Below, piece by piece: positions 16,501-64,000 of a stretch of 64,000 nt of DNA. The position numbers were made by a program, and so were the translations under genes. The notes beneath the pieces were generated by a model. The model did no database searches, had not been told where the DNA came from, and saw only the letters and a list, made by a program, of their open reading frames with translations. Every line of letters starts with the position of its first letter. Position 1 is the first letter of the stretch. Source of the DNA: Arctopsyche grandis (taxonomy: Eukaryota; Arthropoda; Insecta; Trichoptera; Hydropsychidae); NCBI RefSeq assembly GCF_051622035.1, contig NC_135357.1, forward strand, positions 36,935,691 to 36,999,690, in the 5' to 3' direction.

Positions 16501-16827
16501 CCACGGAAACTTTTCGCCCTGCAGATTAAGGGTCACCCGTATCCATCGGTGGATCTTGATGGTTTGGCCCGCCGCTTGCCGCGCTCTGCTGTAATGGCCC
16601 TTCACGACGGTGTAATCTTTAGGAGAGATCTTCGCGAACAGTTCCGGGTTGATCACCGTGATGCACGCCCCGGTGTCCCCCACCATTCGACACGGCACGC
16701 CTCCGATCTCTCCTTTCACGACAAACGAGCCGGCCGTGCCGCTGCCGTCCAGTTTGTTCACTCCGGGTGTTTTGCGTGCACCGGTGATCGGTCTGACCCG
16801 TAACAGGCCGATCACTGCTCGTTTCCC
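13501..16827 (-). CDS. pol: Gypsy A Pol: protease, reverse transcriptase, RNase H, integrase
   Basis: The frame is open from 16851 to a stop at 13501-13503; translation most likely enters by -1 frameshifting at 16827-16821, because no ATG precedes the protease. Numbering from 16815: protease active site DTGA (47-50), reverse transcriptase with VDYRKLN (274-280) and catalytic YLDD (369-372), RNase H DTDAS (516-520), integrase zinc finger H756-H763-C790-C793, and integrase D825, D885 and E921 with 35 residues between the last two. The end carries a GPY/F-type module. All catalytic residues needed are present and no stop interrupts the frame. The domain order protease-RT-RNase H-integrase is that of Ty3/Gypsy elements. 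The protein would copy element RNA into DNA and integrate it. Confidence 0.93.
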   Translation of the reverse strand, partial: GKRAVIGLLRVRPITGARKTPGVNKLDGSGTAGSFVVKGEIGGVPCRMVGDTGACITVINPELFAKISPKDYTVVKGHYSRARQAAGQTIKIHRWIRVTLNLQGEKFPWNVAVADIQDPILLGLDALRHVRATFELGGEEKCIIRGVQREKGKKNAPAVKSIRGEVPHPKITALLERADIMPEEKRRLETMIRENRKAFARDEKDQGRTTKAVHTIDVGDAKPMKQPPRRIPLARKEEVRAMIDDLLKQGAIEPGHGPWASPVVPVAKKDGSLRMCVDYRKLNTVTKIDSHPIPRIDDTFDQLNGASYFSTLDLQSGFWQVPVAPEDREKTAFVTEFGLFQFKVMPFGLCNAPATFVRLMTKVVGDISNVLVYLDDIIVHSKTYDEHLVHLNNVFERIQAAGLKLNADKCRLCCREVEFLGHRVSAEGISTDPKKVQTVRDWTTPKTQTQMRSFLGLATYYRKFVRNFAEIAKPLHQLTEKGREFKWTPTCEQAFEKLKEALTTTPIMSYPQPGERYVLDTDASQHSIGAVLSQVQGGVEKVIGYFSRTMNKPEQNYCVTRKELLAAIKAIQHFHHYLSGSKFTLRTDHSALTWLKNFKRPEGQLARWLEILGQYNVTIIHRPGIKHGNADALSRRPCTEECPKCSRAETTDQENDSARTEPVEPAEPEARVALVGILPNEMTNSTIDKIVEWKNAGTRPPWETVSAEEQELKILWTQWDALEVEGGKLYRRWENTAGTRHTKQLVVPTEKIPEIMWEMHNAPTGGHFGINKTYRNVRQKYYWPTCRIDVTQWCERCAQCGAHNGPHRRNRGALQPYLSGTPLQRMAVDILGPLPATERGNRYILVAMDYFTKWPEAIPLPNQEAETVADALVEQVFTRLGVPNELHSDQGRNFESKLFRQALDRLGVHKTRTTPYRPQSDGMVERLNRTMRAHLTKFVNDEQDDWDTLVPHFLMAYRAAQHDATGASPAAMMYGRELRMPADLLYGGPPPDSEPQDPHRYTTKLTEGMAKVHRFARAHLRMQNSRMKTRYDVRRTEPAYETGDRVWLYNPAKTPGLSPKLQSLWEGPYTIVTKLSDVVYRIRREFDGSNRLMVVHLDRLARYKAVEY
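16764..16827 (-). promoter_or_regulatory. Predicted -1 ribosomal frameshift signal of Gypsy A
   Basis: Slippery heptamer GGGAAAC (16827-16821) is in the gag frame as G GGA AAC, two codons before the gag stop. After a 5-nt spacer, GTGATCGG (16815-16808) pairs perfectly with CCGATCAC (16791-16784). CGGGT in the loop (16800-16796) can pair with ACCCG (16768-16764), giving an H-type pseudoknot with a 15-nt last loop. Shifting -1 continues in the open pol frame. Element B has the same layout with different sequence. Confidence 0.8.
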
Positions 16828-17969
16828 GAAGCCGCCTCCTCCTCGTCGTCTTCATCCTCGTCGTTCGTTGGCTCCAGCTTCCGGACCCTCTTCTTGCGGC
16901 ACAACCGGCTAATGTGTCCCGTTTGTCCGCAGTTCCAACACGTTGGAGTGGTAGTGGCTGGTCGCGCTGTCTGGTCCGATGACACCCATCGTGGGGGTCG
17001 CACGGCCGGTCGAGATGGTCTGAACGCTCCCGCGTCGGGACGTACTGTTCTCGACGTTGGTTGTGCCGACCGTTGTTCCTTCGCTTCGAAGATGACGGCT
17101 TGTCGTGTTGCGTCGGCTCTGGTTATCACGTCCGCTGTAGTCGGGGTGATCCGGAGCGCGCCAAGTTTGGCCCGTAGACTGGGGTACGTGAAGGAGTTCG
17201 CCGCTATGCACACGGTCATGCGTTCGACTGCTTCGGCGTTCGTGTGGACGCCCTCCAGCATGTCTTCGCAGAGGGCTCGTATCGCGTCTATGTGGTCCGC
17301 GGCTGGTTCTTCCGCACTCCATCTTCTCTGTTCCGCTGCCGCATGGCATGCAATCGGTGTGCCCTGTCGTCTGAAGCGTTGGGCCAGCTCTTCCGTCAAG
17401 TCATCGTAGCTCAGCGTCGATGGCAGCTGACTGGCGAAAATGGCGGCCGCACCTCGGAGTTGGCAGCACAGTCGGTCCTCCAGGTTCGTCGTCTCCTTGT
17501 TCAGCCGTGCAGCAAACTCGAAGTGGTTGAGGAAGTCCTTCCACCGTTCAGTACCGTCGAACGTGGTGTAGTCGTACCGGTGGGAATGTTGCCGCACCCC
17601 GTACGTGTCTCGCTGTGTGGTCCGCCTGTCCTCGTAACATACCTCTGATCTCCTCGGTGGTTCTGGATGTACGTCGGCTTTCGGCTGCGTTGGTGTCGCA
17701 GACTTCTCCCAGGACTGCAAAAACGTGGCGAAGGTGTTTTGCAGGGACTGGACCTGCTCTTGGCAGCTCGCCATTCCCTGGCTTAGCTCCTTGTAGCTCG
17801 GCTCCGGTGTCCTTGGCACCCGGCTCCTCGACACCCGGCTCCTCTGCTCCTCCCGTCTCCGTCCTCCGTTGCTCAGCTCCCCAGGGCTTTGTTCTCGATT
17901 CGGCTCCATTTCTTCCGGCAGCGATGAAGACCCCGAATCCGCACCTTTGTGGCTCCTTGTCTCAACCAT
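16812..17969 (-). CDS. gag: Gypsy A Gag with CCHC zinc knuckle
   Basis: A 385-residue protein starts at the first ATG, 3 nt past the primer-binding site. The N-terminal quarter is charged and Ser/Pro-rich. The middle (about 130-275) has the helical character of a capsid domain, with FDGTERWKDFLNHFE and LTEELAQRF motifs usual in Gypsy Gag. A single zinc knuckle, CWNCGQTGHISRLC, has the canonical C-x2-C-x4-H-x4-C spacing and would bind element RNA. The C-terminus is acidic (EDEDDEEEAA). The stop follows the slippery heptamer, so most ribosomes would make Gag alone and a minority Gag-Pol. Confidence 0.9.
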   Translation of the reverse strand: MVETRSHKGADSGSSSLPEEMEPNREQSPGELSNGGRRREEQRSRVSRSRVPRTPEPSYKELSQGMASCQEQVQSLQNTFATFLQSWEKSATPTQPKADVHPEPPRRSEVCYEDRRTTQRDTYGVRQHSHRYDYTTFDGTERWKDFLNHFEFAARLNKETTNLEDRLCCQLRGAAAIFASQLPSTLSYDDLTEELAQRFRRQGTPIACHAAAEQRRWSAEEPAADHIDAIRALCEDMLEGVHTNAEAVERMTVCIAANSFTYPSLRAKLGALRITPTTADVITRADATRQAVIFEAKEQRSAQPTSRTVRPDAGAFRPSRPAVRPPRWVSSDQTARPATTTPTCWNCGQTGHISRLCRKKRVRKLEPTNDEDEDDEEEAASGNEQ

Positions 17970-53621: not shown

Positions 53622-53851
53622 TGTAACGTACGCCCCCGCAGCCGAAGGAGTGGGGGGAAACTACCCCCGCCCTCGGATGCTGGGGAGTGGGAGAAAGTAC
53701 CGCTACTTTCTCAGCTATAAAAGAAGCGCCCTTTCCTTCGGAAGTCGAGTCGGACCACAGCTTTCTCTGAGAACTGTCGTTTCCTTTAGACTCCCATCTC
53801 TGCTGGTCTTTCCCTGTTCAGTCAAAGCCACCCACTTCACCCCACGTTACA
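53622..53851 (+). promoter_or_regulatory. 5' LTR of Gypsy B with TATA box
   Basis: It begins TGTAACGTACGCCCCCG and ends CCCACGTTACA. A TATA box, GCTATAAAAG, is at about 53722-53731. GGGGGGAAACTACCCCC forms a small palindrome upstream of it. The LTR is GC-rich against its surroundings. Confidence 0.8.
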
Positions 53852-53903: not shown

Positions 53904-54944
53904 ATGCCCCCAAAAAGGAGACAGGCATCTCCTCACCAGTTGGACGAACCATCACGTGTGGAACGTCTGGAGGAGCAGATGGCGCGACTCGTCGCGCTTC
54001 TCGAGAGGGACACCACAACACGCACGCCAGCGATTCCGGCAAGCCCTTCAACGAGGGTCCCAGCGGTTCCGGCGAGCACACTGAGTCCCTCGTCATCAGT
54101 ATGCAGAAACGACGCTACTCCACGACCTGTCACCGACCCCATGCTAGGAAGCACCATCCACAAGCAACCGACCGAGCTTCCTGTTTTCGACGGAACGGGC
54201 GACGTAGAACGATTCATCCGCGAATTTGAAATCGTGTCACGAGCCCTACGCTGCGAACCGACGGCAAACTCACTCATTCTCGCTCTACGAGGTCAAGCGA
54301 GAATATTCCTCATCGACGAAGTACCGAAAGAAGCGTACGAAGCGTACGAGGAGCTGAGGGAGAGGCTGGTGAAGCGTTTCAAATCTTCGCCACACCCGTA
54401 CGACGCATTCCGTGACCTAATTTCCCCGTCGATCCGCAACAACGACGATATAGAAGCTCGGTTCGCGGACATCCGTCGAAAAAGGATGGAGGCCTTTCCA
54501 GAGCCTATCCCGTTGGACGTCCTAGACAAGATACTCCTCATATTGTCGTTTCACGACGAGGATATCCGCGCTGCCGTCTTCACCGCAGATCCGACGACCC
54601 CACTGCAGGAGCTGTTACGGCTCGCAAAACACGCGAGGGATGCGAAACGGCTGAGGAGTCAAGGGAGGGGGGCGGCCAACAGACCAGCCCAAGACCACCA
54701 GCCTCACTTCAATACCGCAGCTCGAAACGCCAGCAGACCTCCCTGGCAAGCAGAGGGCCGTAACGGTCACAGACCTCCCTGGCAAGCGGAGGGCCGTAAC
54801 GGCAACAGACCGCCCTGGCAAGGGCAAAGGAACTGCCGAAACTGCGGAAGCCCACAATGTCGCGGGCGGAACTGTCCGAAGGTACGGGCAGTCGAGAACG
54901 CCTCCGACGAGGAAGAGGTGCGATCCCAGTCGGGAAAAGAATAA
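53904..54944 (+). CDS. gag: Gypsy B Gag with a CCCC-type zinc knuckle and internal repeat
   Basis: The protein has 346 residues. A coiled-coil-like stretch near the N-terminus (VERLEEQMARLVALLERD) is followed by a Ser/Pro linker and a capsid-like region (about 90-250) with PVFDGTGDVERFIREFE. Near the C-terminus RPPWQAEGRNG is repeated (54735-54830) as two full and one partial 12-residue unit. The single knuckle CRNCGSPQCRGRNC has Cys where His is usual. The stop at 54942 lies just after the slippery heptamer. I chose the first ATG after the primer-binding site; its context suits the length of capsid that follows. Confidence 0.88.
   Translation: MPPKRRQASPHQLDEPSRVERLEEQMARLVALLERDTTTRTPAIPASPSTRVPAVPASTLSPSSSVCRNDATPRPVTDPMLGSTIHKQPTELPVFDGTGDVERFIREFEIVSRALRCEPTANSLILALRGQARIFLIDEVPKEAYEAYEELRERLVKRFKSSPHPYDAFRDLISPSIRNNDDIEARFADIRRKRMEAFPEPIPLDVLDKILLILSFHDEDIRAAVFTADPTTPLQELLRLAKHARDAKRLRSQGRGAANRPAQDHQPHFNTAARNASRPPWQAEGRNGHRPPWQAEGRNGNRPPWQGQRNCRNCGSPQCRGRNCPKVRAVENASDEEEVRSQSGKE
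54735..54830 (+). repeat. 36-bp in-frame tandem repeat in gag B
   Basis: AGACCTCCCTGGCAAGC, then GAGGGCCGTAACGG, repeat with few changes in units of 36 bp, 12 codons each, immediately before the zinc knuckle. Confidence 0.85.
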
Positions 54945-54996
54945 TGGTCAGTTCCACACGGGCAGGACTGATCATCGAAGACGAAGAAAAGCCCGT
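54932..54996 (+). promoter_or_regulatory. Predicted -1 ribosomal frameshift signal of Gypsy B
   Basis: Slippery heptamer GGGAAAA (54932-54938) is read G GGA AAA in the gag frame. After 5 nt, ATGGTCAGT (54944-54952) pairs with ACTGATCAT (54967-54975), 9 bp with one G-U. The loop ACGGGC (54958-54963) pairs with GCCCGT (54991-54996), leaving a 15-nt last loop. The gag stop (54942-54944) overlaps the start of the first stem. Confidence 0.8.
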
Positions 54997-57900
54997 CCCA
55001 GTGTTAGGGAGCGTCGGCGACTCACCTTTCGTATTAGACACCGAAGGCGAGATCGGAGGAGTACCATGTAGGGTACTGTTGGATACCGGGGCAAGCGTCT
55101 CCGTTATCTCCAGCAAACTGTTCGCCAAAATTCCCCGCGAACATAGAAAAAGGGTGAACGACAAAAGGGAAAGAATACGAGTCGCAGACGGTCGACACGT
55201 AGCGATCTACGTATGGGCCGAGACTACGTTGGCAATTAAAGGCACACAAGCGAGATGGAAATTTGCCGTCACTGATTTCTCCTCAGAGGTCATCATGGGG
55301 ATGGATCTCCTGCGCCACCTCAATACGATCGTCGAACTGGGAGGAACCACGACAAGGGTCACTTTCCGGAACGACATTGCGCCCCATCGACCAGTAAGTT
55401 CAGTCCATTCGTGTCAGGAAATAAAAAGACACGAACTGAACGGAAAGCGACAAGACGACCTGCCCCGCCAACTGGACGTTGCTATCATCGACCTACCACC
55501 TGGAAAACGGTCGACGATCGTCAACTCCCTCCTCCAACATCGACAAGCCTTCGCCCAAAGCGAACGGGACTTAAGCCAAGTCCATAAAGGGAGCCATCGA
55601 ATAAATAGCGGCGACGCCGCCCCCATCAAACAGGCCCCTCGCAGAATACCGCTGCACAAGAAGACAGAGGTACGGTCCCTCATCAACGACTTGTTGACAA
55701 GACAAATAATCGAACCAGCAGCCGGTCCCTGGGCCTCCCCCATCGTATTGGTCACGAAAAAGACCGGCGAGTTGCGCCTCTGCGTTGACTATCGTCGGTT
55801 AAACGCCGTGACAACGAAAGACTCGTTCCCGATGCCACGAATGGACGACGTCCTGGACAGACTCGCGGGCGCCAAATTCTTCTCGACGTTGGACCTGCAG
55901 ATTGGTTTTTGGCAAGTCCCAGTCGAAGAGAAAGACCGACCAAAAACCGCCTTTACCACTGAATTTGGTCTGTTCCAATTCCGTGTTATGCCTTTCGGCC
56001 TCTGCAACGCGCCTGCCACATTCTCCCGGCTAATGGAAGACATTCTCGGCGACCTGACCGGATCAACCTTGGTATACCTCGACGACATCATAATATTTAG
56101 TCCGACCCCGGAGGCCCACTTGGAACACATCCAGACGGTCCTCAAACGCCTACTTGCGGTCGGACTCAAAGTAAATACGCGGAAGTGCCAGCTGTTTAGG
56201 AATGAGGTCTGCTTCCTTGGCCATAAAATCAGCTCCCACGGCGTCTGCACGGATCCAGAGAAGACAAAAGCCGTGAGAGAGTGGCCCACCCCCAAATCGA
56301 AGGCACAACTCCGCAGCTTCTTAGGCCTCTGCACCTATTACCGGAGGTTTGTGCAAGGGTTTGCGCAAACGGCGAAACCACTGCATCGTCTCACGGAGGA
56401 GAAAACAGTCTTCACGTGGGACCAAGACTGCGAGCATGCCTTCAATGCCCTCAAAAACGCTCTGACAAATGCGGAAACAATGGCATTCCCCCGACCCGAG
56501 GGAATCTATATTCTGGACGCGGATGCCAGTCAACATGCCATCGGAGCCGTGCTCTCCCAAGTTCAAGACGGCGAGGAGAAGGTGATCGGGTACTATAGTC
56601 GCACCTTGAAGGTACCGGAACGGAACTACTGCGTCACCCGGAAAGAGCTGCTCGCCATCGTCGACGCAGTAGAGCACTTCCACCACTACCTGTACGGAAG
56701 CCCCTTCACACTCCGAACCGATCACGCCGCACTGACGTTGCTCCGCAGCTTCAGAAAACCTGAAGGTCAATGGGCCCGCTGGTTGCAACGACTGGGACAG
56801 TACCACATGGACGTACAGCATCGAGCAGGGAAGAAACACGGCAACGCCGACGCCCTCTCTAGACGTCCATGTGACCCAGACTGCCCGAAATGCGCGAAAA
56901 TAGAGAGTGAGCAAATAGCACCCGAAGCCAAACTCGTCACTCTAGGGAACCCACAAAGTCCCCAGGCCACCGACTCCACAATCTCACGCTTCATCGCCTG
57001 GAAAGAGTCCGGGAGACGACCACTGTGGGAAGAAGTTTCGGCAGAAGAACCCGAAGTTCGGATTCTATGGGCCCAGTGGGACGCACTAACTGTCGACCAG
57101 GGTCAGCTCTTCCGGCGATGGGAAAGCCCAAACGGCGAGCGTCAGATCCTGCAATTGGTCATTCCCGAGAGCCACACAAATGAAATCCTATGGGAGATGC
57201 ACAGTTCCCCGACTGGCGGACACTTCGGCGTCAATAAAACGCTAAAGAATGTCCGCCGCCGATACTACTGGCCAACATGCCGCCCCGACGTTATAAAATG
57301 GTGCGAAAAATGCCCCAGGTGTGCAGCGCAAAACGGACCACATACGAGGAACAGGGCGGCCATGCGGCAATACGTGTCAGGGGCACCGATGGACCGAATG
57401 GCGATCGACATATTGGGACCACTACCGGTTACCAATAGGGGGAACCGTTACGTGCTAGTGGCCGCTGATTACTTCACAAAGTGGCCAGAAGCCATTCCCT
57501 TACCGGACCAAGAGGCGGAAACGGTAGCGGAAGCCCTAGTAACCCATGTCTTCGCCAAACTGGGCACACCTCGAGAACTGCACTCCGATCAAGGCCGTAA
57601 TTTTGAAGCCCGAGTCTTTGCCGAAACGCTGGATAAATTGGGCATCTGCAAAACTCGGACGACCCCTTACCACCCTCAGTCGGACGGGATGATCGAGAGG
57701 TTAAACCGCACTCTACTTGGATACCTCCGGAAATTCCTGTCCTACTACGACGAGGAGGCAGAACGAGACTGGGACACGATGCTGTCCCCGTTCCTCATGG
57801 CTTACCGCTCAACCCCACACGACGCGACAGGAGAGTCGCCAGCCCTGATGATGTTCGGCAGGGAAATGCGCCTTCCGCCCCAACTTATTTACGGCGGACC

Positions 57901-58264
57901 CCCGGACAGTATACCCGAGCAATCAGCCCACAAATACGTCCAAAATCTCATAGAAGGGATGGCGGAAACGCACAAATTCGCTCGGAAACACCTCCAGAAG
58001 ACGCATAAAAGAATGAAAGCGGCTTACGACGGGAGGATCTGGGAACCACGATACGAAGAGGGCGATCGCGTTTGGTTGCACAACCCAGCCAAGAAGCCCG
58101 GTCGCACCCTTAAACTCCAATCCCCTTGGGAAGGTCCGTTCCGGATTATTAAGAGGATCAGCGACGTTGTCTATCGGATCCGCCGGGAAACAGGGAACTC
58201 CCGGTATCTGGTGGTACACGTCAACAGATTAGCGCGATACCTCGCAACACCGGATCCGATCTAA
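54932..58264 (+). CDS. pol: Gypsy B Pol: protease, reverse transcriptase, RNase H, integrase
   Basis: The frame is open from before 54857 to the stop at 58262-58264. The -1 frame is most likely entered at the heptamer, although an ATG at 54857 lies in the same frame inside gag. Numbering from that ATG: protease DTGAS (76-80), RT VDYRRLN (about 310) and YLDD (407-410), RNase H DADAS (about 554), and an integrase zinc finger (SSPTGGHFG, then KCPRC). Integrase catalytic motifs are MAIDILGPL, HSDQGRNFE and PQSDGMIERLNR. A GPF/Y-type module (WEGPFRII) ends the protein. Every catalytic motif is intact. Compared with A, it shares most motifs but differs throughout, so it is a related but distinct family. 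Confidence 0.92.
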   Translation, partial: GKRIMVSSTRAGLIIEDEEKPVPVLGSVGDSPFVLDTEGEIGGVPCRVLLDTGASVSVISSKLFAKIPREHRKRVNDKRERIRVADGRHVAIYVWAETTLAIKGTQARWKFAVTDFSSEVIMGMDLLRHLNTIVELGGTTTRVTFRNDIAPHRPVSSVHSCQEIKRHELNGKRQDDLPRQLDVAIIDLPPGKRSTIVNSLLQHRQAFAQSERDLSQVHKGSHRINSGDAAPIKQAPRRIPLHKKTEVRSLINDLLTRQIIEPAAGPWASPIVLVTKKTGELRLCVDYRRLNAVTTKDSFPMPRMDDVLDRLAGAKFFSTLDLQIGFWQVPVEEKDRPKTAFTTEFGLFQFRVMPFGLCNAPATFSRLMEDILGDLTGSTLVYLDDIIIFSPTPEAHLEHIQTVLKRLLAVGLKVNTRKCQLFRNEVCFLGHKISSHGVCTDPEKTKAVREWPTPKSKAQLRSFLGLCTYYRRFVQGFAQTAKPLHRLTEEKTVFTWDQDCEHAFNALKNALTNAETMAFPRPEGIYILDADASQHAIGAVLSQVQDGEEKVIGYYSRTLKVPERNYCVTRKELLAIVDAVEHFHHYLYGSPFTLRTDHAALTLLRSFRKPEGQWARWLQRLGQYHMDVQHRAGKKHGNADALSRRPCDPDCPKCAKIESEQIAPEAKLVTLGNPQSPQATDSTISRFIAWKESGRRPLWEEVSAEEPEVRILWAQWDALTVDQGQLFRRWESPNGERQILQLVIPESHTNEILWEMHSSPTGGHFGVNKTLKNVRRRYYWPTCRPDVIKWCEKCPRCAAQNGPHTRNRAAMRQYVSGAPMDRMAIDILGPLPVTNRGNRYVLVAADYFTKWPEAIPLPDQEAETVAEALVTHVFAKLGTPRELHSDQGRNFEARVFAETLDKLGICKTRTTPYHPQSDGMIERLNRTLLGYLRKFLSYYDEEAERDWDTMLSPFLMAYRSTPHDATGESPALMMFGREMRLPPQLIYGGPPDSIPEQSAHKYVQNLIEGMAETHKFARKHLQKTHKRMKAAYDGRIWEPRYEEGDRVWLHNPAKKPGRTLKLQSPWEGPFRIIKRISDVVYRIRRETGNSRYLVVHVNRLARYLATPDPI

Positions 58265-58388: not shown

Positions 58389-58618
58389 TGTAACGTACGC
58401 CCCCGCAGCCGAAGGAGTGGGGGGAAACTACCCCCGCCCTCGGATGCTGGGGAGTGGGAGAAAGTACCGCTACTTTCTCAGCTATAAAAGAAGCGCCCTT
58501 TCCTTCGGAAGTCGAGTCGGACCACAGCTTTCTCTGAGAACTGTCGTTTCCTTTAGACTCCCATCTCTGCTGGTCTTTCCCTGTTCAGTCAAAGCCACCC
58601 ACTTCACCCCACGTTACA
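58389..58618 (+). repeat. 3' LTR of Gypsy B
   Basis: Identical to the 5' LTR as read, 230 bp, from TGTAACGTACG to CCCACGTTACA. Confidence 0.92.
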
Positions 58619-60843: not shown

Positions 60844-61121
60844 TGAAGAGTATTCAAAGGTAAGTGGAGTCAGGTCGAGGTACAAGAAAACACGCAGGCA
60901 GGTTCCAGGTCTTTATTGCTGCTCGTCCGGTGGAGGTCAGGATCCGAATGCCACCGATCGAGAGCGTACCATTCTTATATCATAGAACGCTCAGCGCATA
61001 CACGTATTATCATTGGTCAAGGAGTCGGGTGCAGCCTTTGGTCGCAACGCCCGACTCCACCATTGGTCGGCGTCACCATGACGTCACCGGTCTACGGGGC
61101 GTCTCTCTATGTAACGTTACA
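60844..61121 (-). repeat. 3' LTR of Gypsy C
   Basis: It is 278 bp, missing 19 bp relative to the LTR of A (around 61005), with several substitutions such as GTAACGTTACA for GCAACGCTACA at the terminus. Confidence 0.85.
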
Positions 61122-61205
61122 TAACCCCCTTCTTAAGAGAGATCGTCCCGATCGACCCATTAATTTACACTTAAGCAATTACAAAATAGTTACATACAAT
61201 TACAG

Positions 61206-63950
61206 TCAATATTCGACGGCCTTATACCTTGCGAGTCTATCCAGGTGCACCACCATTAATCGGTTTGAGCCGTCGAATTCCCTGCGTATCCTATAAACTA
61301 CGTCACTAAGTTTGGTCACTATGGTGTACGGTCCTTCCCACAGCGATTGCAGCTTTGGTGAAAGCCCTGGAGTCTTGGCAGGGTTGTACAGCCATACTCG
61401 GTCACCTGTTTCGTACGCCGGTTCGGTTCTGCGGACGTCGTATCGCGTCTTCATACGGCTATTCTGCATCCGGAGGTGGGCTCTGGCGAACCGATGTACC
61501 TTGGCCATGTCTTCGGTCAACTTCGTGGTATATCGGTGTGGATCCTGAGGTTCGCTGTCTGGTGGAGGGCCCCCATATAGTAGGTCCGCCGGCATGCGCA
61601 GTTCTCGTCCGTACATCATGGCTGCTGGTGATGCTCCTGTCGCATCGTGTTGGGCCGCTCTATATGCCATGAGGAAGTGCGGAACCAGCGTGTCCCAGTC
61701 GTCCTGCTCGTCGTTGACGAACTTCGTCAAGTGCGCCCGCATGGTTCGATTGAGTCGCTCGACCATTCCATCGGACTGAGGTCGGTATGGTGTTGTTCTC
61801 GTTTTGTGTACGCCCAGCCGGTCCAGTGACTGCCGGAACAACTTCGACTCGAAGTTTCGTCCCTGGTCAGAGTGCAGCTCGTTCGGGACGCCTAGCCGCG
61901 TGAACACTTGTTCTACCAGGGCGTCTGCTACGGTCTCTGCCTCCTGGTTCGGTAGTGGAATCGCTTCCGGCCACTTCGTGAAGTAGTCCATGGCCACCAG
62001 TATGTATCGGTTTCCTCGTTCGGTGGCCGGGAGTGGACCCAGAATGTCGACTGCCATTCGTTGTAGTGGCGTCCCCGAAAAGTACGGTTGAAGTGCCCCG
62101 CGATTCCTTCGGTGTGGTCCGTTGTGGGCCCCGCACTGTGCGCATCGTTCGCACCACTGGGTGACGTCGATTCGACACGTCGGCCAGTAATATTTTTGGC
62201 GCACGTTTCGGTACGTTTTATTGATACCGAAGTGGCCCCCCGTGGGCGCGTTGTGCATCTCCCACATGATTTCGGGTATCTTCTCAGTCGGCACCACCAG
62301 CTGCTTTGTGTGACGTGTTCCCGCGGTGTTCTCCCATCTCCGGTACAGCTTACCGCCTTCTACCTCCAATGCGTCCCATTGAGTCCACAGTATTTTAAGT
62401 TCCTGCTCCTCAGCAGATACTGTTTCCCACGGTGGTCTCGTTCCGGCGTTCTTCCACTCGACGATTTTGTCGATCGTCGAGTTTGTCATCTCGTTGGGCA
62501 AGATCCCTACGAGGGCAACTCGTGCTTCCGGTTCTGCGGGTTCTACTGGTTCCGTTCGGGCCGAGTCGTTTTCTTGATCGGTTGTCTCTGCGCGTGAGCA
62601 TTTGGGACACTCTTCCGTACACGGCCTTCGCGATAGTGCGTCCGCGTTCCCGTGCTTTATCCCCGGTCGATGAATGATGGTCACGTTGTACTGGCCCAGA
62701 ATTTCCAGCCACCTCGCCAACTGGCCCTCCGGTCTTTTGAAGTTCTTCAGCCACGTTAACGCTGAGTGGTCGGTTCGTAACGTGAACTTCGAGCCCGATA
62801 GGTAGTGGTGGAAGTGTTGAATGGCTTTAATTGCCGCCAATAGTTCTTTTCGGGTCACGCAATAGTTTTGTTCGGGTTTGTTCATTGTCCGGCTGAAATA
62901 CCCGATCACTTTCTCCACCCCCCCTTGAACTTGAGACAAAACTGCACCGATGCTATGTTGACTGGCGTCGGTGTCCAACACATATCGCTCTCCCGGCTGG
63001 GGATACGACATAATTGGCGTGGTAGTCAGCGCTTCTTTCAACTTTTCGAACGCTTGTTCCAGGAAGCTGCGCATTTGGGTTTGTGTTTTCGGAGTCGTCC
63101 AGTCCCGCACGGTTTGGACTTTCTTCGGATCTGTCGAAATTCCTTCGGCTGACACTCGGTGTCCCAGAAATTCGACCTCGCGGCAGCACAATCGACACTT
63201 GTCTGCATTCAATTTAAGGCCGGCTGCCTGTATCCGTTCGAACACATTGTTTAAATGCACCAAGTGTTCGTCGTAAGTTTTGCTATGCACGATAATGTCG
63301 TCTAGATACACGAGGACATTGCTTATGTCACCGACCACTTTTGTCATTAACCATACGAACGTCGCTGGCGCGTTACACAACCCGAATGGCATCACTTTGA
63401 ACTGAAACAGACCGAACTCTGTTACGAACGCTGTCTTCTCGCGGTCTTCCGGGGCGACCGGTACCTGCCAGAATCCGCTCTGCAGATCCAGTGTGCTGAA
63501 GTAGCTCGCTCCGTTCAACTGGTCGAAAGTGTCGTCGATCCTCGGGATGGGGTGTGAGTCTATTTTGGTGACGGTGTTCAGTTTCCGGTAGTCCACGCAC
63601 ATCCTTAGCGACCCGTCCTTTTTGGCGACCGGAACTACCGGTGACGCCCACGGCCCGTGCCCCGGTTCTATCGCGCCCTGCTTCAGTAAGTCGTCGATCA
63701 TAGCGCGTACTTCCTCTTTCCGTGCTAGCGGTATCCTTCTCGGCGGCTGTTTCATCGGCTTCGCGTCTCCCACGTCGATGGTGTGGACCGCCTTGGTGGT
63801 CCTTCCTTGGTCCTTCTCGTCCCGGGCGAACGCTTTCCGATTTTCCCGAATCATGGTCTCGAGGCGCCGTTTCTCTTCTGGCAGAATATCGGCCCTCTCG
63901 AGTAACGCCGTGATCTTCGGGTGGGGTACTTCCCCGCGGATGCTCTTGAC
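61206..63950 (-). pseudogene. pol: Gypsy C pol, defective
   Basis: The frame reads through RT (YLDDIIVHS), RNase H (DTDAS) and integrase (MAVDILGPL, HSDQGRNFE, SDGMVERLNR) with few changes from A. A 108-bp in-frame deletion at about 63058 removes 36 residues between the RT thumb and RNase H (jumping from MRSFL to EQAFEK). Upstream, near 63952, an 8-bp deletion (GACAGTTTTTCTT for the longer A sequence) shifts the frame, disconnecting the protease. The copy is therefore very unlikely to make a working polyprotein. Arg to Trp in ATFVWLMTK is another difference. Confidence 0.8.
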
Positions 63951-64000
63951 AGTTTTTCTTCCCTTTCTCGCGTTGCACGCCCCTGATGATACACTTCTCC

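Follow-up and report, generated by a model that had tools for sequence, protein, structure and literature searches.

A putative pseudoknot-type -1 frameshift signal conserved at the gag/pol junction of divergent Gypsy elements of Arctopsyche grandis

How pol is translated when its reading frame overlaps that of gag in the -1 register is the question raised by two divergent retroelements, A and B, in the window, that is, in the whole 64,000-nucleotide stretch of Arctopsyche grandis DNA that was analysed. This window is part of one contig, and the genome searched for further copies comprises 475.7 Mb in 189 contigs. As judged from sequence, the junction very probably serves a Ty3/Gypsy-type LTR retrotransposon as a conserved signal for programmed -1 frameshifting, by which Gag-Pol would be made. 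This reading draws on the phase of a slippery heptamer, the uniqueness of that heptamer in A and B, the pairing downstream of it, the excess of this pairing over chance and the covariation found over four families.

Element B is bounded by identical LTRs of 230 bp each, with the 4-bp target duplication ACCC on both sides, and its gag and pol overlap by 145 nt with pol in the -1 frame:

53622..53851, plus strand: left LTR of B, identical to the right LTR
53904..54944, plus strand: gag ORF of B, 346 aa, with its stop TAA at 54942-54944
54857..58264, plus strand: pol ORF of B in the -1 frame, with protease, RT, RNase H and integrase
58389..58618, plus strand: right LTR of B

Element A has identical LTRs of 297 bp with the target duplication TTAC on both sides, and its -1 (pol) frame is already open upstream of the heptamer:

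16812..17969, minus strand: gag ORF of A, 385 aa
13501..16815, minus strand: pol ORF of A, counted from its first start-like codon

In both elements pol encodes protease, RT, RNase H and integrase in the Gypsy order (Pfam; P0002, P0004). With this domain order and paired LTRs flanked by a short target duplication, A and B are Ty3/Gypsy LTR retrotransposons. They share 55% identity over 1097 aligned positions of pol and 28% over 157 positions of gag. Database relatives of pol are distant, with 30-62% identity over parts of pol among the matches listed. For gag of B, none of the 7994 candidates scored from the protein database reached E <= 0.001. No relatives were found in viral contigs with the queries P0002, A1 and A2.

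The window also contains a second copy of family A, copy C, which occupies 60844-64000 and runs past the window end (L009/L010). Around the junction 694 of 700 bases are the same as in A, with one loop base different within the signal itself (L009). The LTRs of copy C are about 89% like those of A and 98.9% like each other, which suggests subfamilies with a common interior and different LTRs, and its pol falls in two frames by tblastn. LTRs resembling those of A (86-88%) occur at L014:891-1151 and L016:6401-6660 with no pol nearby by tblastn and are perhaps solo LTRs.

The junction of B is built from the following parts:

54932..54938, plus strand: slippery heptamer GGGAAAA, in phase as G_GGA_AAA
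54939-54943, plus strand: spacer of 5 nt
54944..54954, plus strand: 5' arm of stem 1, 11 bp including 2 G-U
54958..54963, plus strand: 5' arm of stem 2, ACGGGC, 6 bp
54965..54975, plus strand: 3' arm of stem 1, pairing with 54944-54954
54976..54990, plus strand: last loop, 15 nt
54991..54996, plus strand: 3' arm of stem 2, GCCCGT, pairing with 54958-54963

The heptamer, the 5-nt spacer and the 6-bp second stem are present as the initial annotation had described them. The 9-bp first stem that it gave, which has one G-U pair, exists as well, and the pairing extends further to the 11 bp listed here. Within the 145-nt overlap GGGAAAA is the sole X_XXY_YYZ in phase with the gag frame. The arms make up an H-type pseudoknot with a loop 1 of 3 nt, a junction of 1 nt and a stacking energy of -30.7; this and the other pseudoknot energies are stacking sums only, without loop terms. 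Rfam gave no match across 54800-55100.

The signal of A, which as a whole covers 16827-16764 on the minus strand, follows the same plan:

16821..16827, minus strand: slippery heptamer GGGAAAC, in phase
16808..16815, minus strand: 5' arm of stem 1, a perfect 8 bp
16796..16800, minus strand: 5' arm of stem 2, 5 bp
16784..16791, minus strand: 3' arm of stem 1
16764..16768, minus strand: 3' arm of stem 2

Here too GGGAAAC is the sole in-phase heptamer, within an overlap of 40 nt, and the pseudoknot is H-type, with a spacer of 5 nt, a loop 1 of 7 nt, a junction of 4 nt, a last loop of 15 nt and a stacking sum of -26.4. The plan proposed for A (heptamer, spacer, perfect 8-bp stem and 5-bp second stem) is accurate, and the 15-nt last loop ascribed to both elements is borne out. 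If positions are numbered from the first heptamer base, stem 1 of A could be extended by the pairs 22-35 and 23-34 beyond a C-A mismatch. In both elements the gag stop overlaps the foot of stem 1, and the heptamer is in phase and unique in A, in B and in one further copy of each. Both junctions consist of an in-phase X_XXY_YYZ in a -1 overlap with a structure at a short spacer from it, the features by which a -1 frameshift signal is recognised.

Aligned from the heptamer through to the end of stem 2, A and B require no gap. All 13 pairs that the two structures have in common form in both elements and none is broken, with changes on both sides in three of them (13-44, 19-38 and 32-60) and on one side in another (16-41). 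The differences between A and B fall on 7 of 26 paired sites as against 29 of 42 unpaired sites (Fisher p 0.001). Of 200000 trials in which seven substitutions fell at random on the 26 paired sites, 52 left all 13 pairs intact; with the 3' arms slid by 1-3 positions, at most 7 of the 13 remained. The assertion that pairing and spacing are kept despite changed sequence is upheld by these 13 intact pairs and extends to two further families, D and E, described below.

A search of the genome with the junction of B found 98-100% identity in the 40 scored of 48 candidates, 18 of them at 100%. Twenty of the 22 copies below 100% were read, that is, all except C3:35898539 and C3:34064509, and all 20 keep GGGAAAA. 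Their commonest changes, C51T (18 copies) and G49A (12), both lie in the last loop. Rarer are C28T (one copy), which keeps its pair as U-G, C67T, which is outside the signal, and G64A (one copy, L030), which breaks one pair of stem 2. The site is also intact in two more copies, of 93-95% protein identity, one of which (L068) has C61T, giving a G-U in stem 2; all 22 of the further B copies read thus retain heptamer and core. A blind sample of 200 kb adjoining the window yielded one extra B copy with an identical junction. The matches to B are clustered: 26 of the best 40 are on contig C3, 22 of these 40 being within 34.0-37.7 Mb, in the last 4 Mb of that contig.

Of the 21 further family A pieces that were read, 18 retain the heptamer together with the beginning of stem 1; in L063, L082 and L083 this part is deleted or rearranged. 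L083 was rearranged in such a way that the heptamer side is gone and the 3' arm of stem 1 belongs to a longer hairpin. Stem 2 has lost its end pair in L065 and three pairs in L081, while a changed pair is kept as U-G in L055 and L084 is rearranged downstream in such a way that the new arm can still pair, mostly by G-U. One piece (L064) has neither gag nor pol and yielded no junction. A search of the genome for the exact junction pattern gave 90 matches, mostly other things; GGGAAAAAGAAGAACGGGC accounts for 28 of them and, with flanks alike at two loci, looks like an unrelated dispersed repeat.

Families D and E were found elsewhere in the genome by a protein search with 159 matches, from which upstream pieces were examined. 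In register with the heptamers of A and B, family E has GGAAAAC (G_GAA_AAC), which is not a strict X_XXY_YYZ, in 10 of 12 E-type copies read (L066, L070-L077 and L091). The exceptions are L090, a decayed relative with GGAATAC that has kept much of stem 1, and the copy L078/L093, in which the heptamer side is deleted; in a thirteenth E-type piece (L095, a 68% E-like fragment) no junction was found. The spacer of E is 5 nt, and its perfect 9-bp stem 1 and 5-bp stem 2 occupy the same positions as in A and B. Pair 20-37 is U-A in E and G-C in A and B, and pair 21-36 is C-G in E and U-A in B. Decayed fragments 68-86% like the family E protease lie on one strand of contig C2 at 11.79-12.17 Mb, some of them spaced 5.5 kb apart in the manner of a tandem array.

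The heptamer of family D is GGGAAAC in seven of eight copies, with GGCAAAC in L052. Of the 11 in-register positions of its stem 1, 8 are paired (15-19 with 38-42, 21-23 with 34-36). A last loop shorter by 3 nt would allow its stem 2 to form 6 pairs; MAFFT, which was given no structure, places a 3-nt gap in this loop that puts stem 2 in register. The spacer is 7 nt with the in-register stem 1 and 4 nt by a simple scan, whose top-scoring stem 1 is a different one of 5 bp. As this stem competes with the in-register one and the overlap contains further in-phase heptamers (AAAAAAG and, in some copies, AAAAAAT), D is the weakest of the four cases.

Whether such pairing could arise by chance was approached from several sides. 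Dinucleotide shuffles matched the observed pseudoknot stacking energy in 0 of 1500 cases for B and 6 of 1500 for A, and matched what was observed in E and D in 1 and 39 of 5000, respectively. Under synonymous recoding with the pol protein kept, the observed score was matched by 8 of 5000 recodings in B, 46 in E, 110 in D and 232 in A, which makes A on its own borderline under this codon-preserving null. Along both gag-pol stretches (n = 8650 start positions) 6 positions match the score of B and 14 that of A; the 6 would be the count expected from B's own site under the six allowed spacers. On the plus strand of the window 45 of 63900 positions are at about the score of B and 130 of 63900 at about that of A. 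For the in-register pairing of stem 1, matches were found in 0 (B), 6 (E) and 88 (D) of 20000 shuffles, and among 220 other registers none pairs equally well in B, one does in A and four each in D and E.

Compensatory changes, for which the initial annotation had advised a search among homologues, are present over the four families. The alignment was made by MAFFT from one representative each of A, B, D and E of this one genome. Standard pairs fill 88.2% of the 68 pair cells, 8 of 17 pairs are changed on both sides (each matched in 0 of 500 shuffles) and there are 13 further pair types (matched in 7 of 500), all counted on a structure drawn from B, which favours B's register over slid versions, and over four rows, which are few. 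Slid structures reach at most 45.6% standard pairs and at most 2 double-changed pairs. The double changes affect both stems, with 6 of 11 pairs in stem 1 and 2 of 6 in stem 2; for the latter 91.7% of cells are paired, given MAFFT's 3-nt gap in D, and all four representatives have the same CGGG in its 5' arm. Covariation supports two crossing stems.

In mechanistic terms, ribosomes translating gag would meet an H-type pseudoknot 5 nt past G_GGA_AAA and pause, and a fraction of them would slip back by one base onto GGG_AAA. Having slipped, they would miss the gag stop and make Gag-Pol, presumably as a minority product, with the knot rather than a hairpin alone as the likely stimulator. For family E this would entail a shift of the P-site from GAA to GGA, with a mismatch in the middle of the codon, and of the A-site from AAC to AAA. 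Family E corresponds in part to one outcome that had been named in advance as contrary to a frameshift function, namely copies that keep the frames but not the heptamer or the pairing: E lacks the strict heptamer and has kept the pairing and the frames. The E heptamer and, in D, the 3 of 11 unpaired positions of stem 1, the competing fold and the further in-phase heptamers were counted against the simplest frameshift picture, as were the codon-preserving nulls of A and D and the damage to stem 2 in L030, L065 and L081. A more tentative proposal is that one homologous knot was inherited by a Gypsy lineage comprising at least A, B, D and E and co-evolved base by base within it, and that the strong knot of E relaxes the P-site rule so far that G_GAA_AAC works.

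Other explanations of the junction have to be weighed against a knot-stimulated frameshift. The stimulator could be the long stem 1 hairpin alone, with stem 2 incidental or a later add-on. Hairpins can act in this way, as described in PMC5175198, and a pseudoknot-free fold of stem 1 and a small second hairpin already reaches -15.7 (B) and -20.1 kcal/mol (A). By contrast, each of the four families is able to form stem 2, in which 2 of the 6 pairs are double-changed, once the D gap is accepted, and this explanation appears unlikely. Far less probable still is that the pairing is a functionless by-product of common ancestry and protein constraint. The nulls for A (232 of 5000) and D (110 of 5000) would allow it, whereas those for B (8 of 5000) and E (46 of 5000) do not favour it, and double changes at 8 of 17 pairs have occurred in register while unpaired sites diverged. 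The open pol frames of 1100-1156 aa found in many copies among the matches listed moreover indicate that the arrangement has been maintained.

Termination at the gag stop followed by reinitiation would produce pol without any slippage, and B does have UAAUG at 54942-54946, over the foot of stem 1, with the AUG in the pol frame. However, the codon at the position of this AUG is GUG in A and E and CGG in D, the gag stop of D lies about 57 nt beyond the heptamer, and reinitiation needs neither heptamer nor knot, all of which makes this route highly improbable.

Of 51 animal retroelements in a 2003 survey, 28 had pol in the -1 frame, many with classical heptamers (as summarised in PMC5009743); they are like A and B in this respect, and the summary of the survey names no pseudoknot for them, which does not show that they lack one. 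Nine AgCR elements of the CsRn1-like group likewise have a -1 gag/pol overlap, and the words slippery, pseudoknot and heptamer are absent from the main text of that paper (PMC2582038). No insect Gypsy element with a defined pseudoknot was found among the matches listed in the open-licence literature, as covered by titles and the beginnings of abstracts. As gag of B also lacks a relative among the 7994 candidates scored, it is possible that the exact element is undescribed. What A, B, D and E offer is a candidate for the stimulator that would act at the -1 gag/pol overlap in a lineage of Gypsy elements, resolved to the base and supported by covariation, and, as four natural variants with three heptamers and differing stems, a set suited to studying the trade-off between heptamer and knot strength.

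A close counterpart is PEG10, in which G GGA AAC is followed by a pseudoknot from two nucleotides past the intercodon (PMC4598141), a position that we read as a 5-nt spacer. The likeness to A and B is one of heptamer, spacing and fold type, PEG10 being, unlike them, a domesticated mammalian (vertebrate) gene derived from Ty3/Gypsy. In the dimensions of its knot (spacer 5, S1 11, S2 6, L1 3, L2 15, L3 1) B falls among the animal-virus recoding pseudoknots of Table 1 in PMC3835772, where, in the order spacer/S1/S2/L1/L2/L3, Breda virus has 5/11/6/1/11/2 and CAEV, with the heptamer GGGAAAC, 4/10/7/1/15/0. These differ from B in host and gene, and the energies in the table come from another program. 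The same table gives the arterivirus heptamer GUUAAAC, in which the first triplet is relaxed, and the GGAAAAC of family E can be likened to it. The type of signal is already well known, as the same architecture is present in PEG10 and in many animal viruses.
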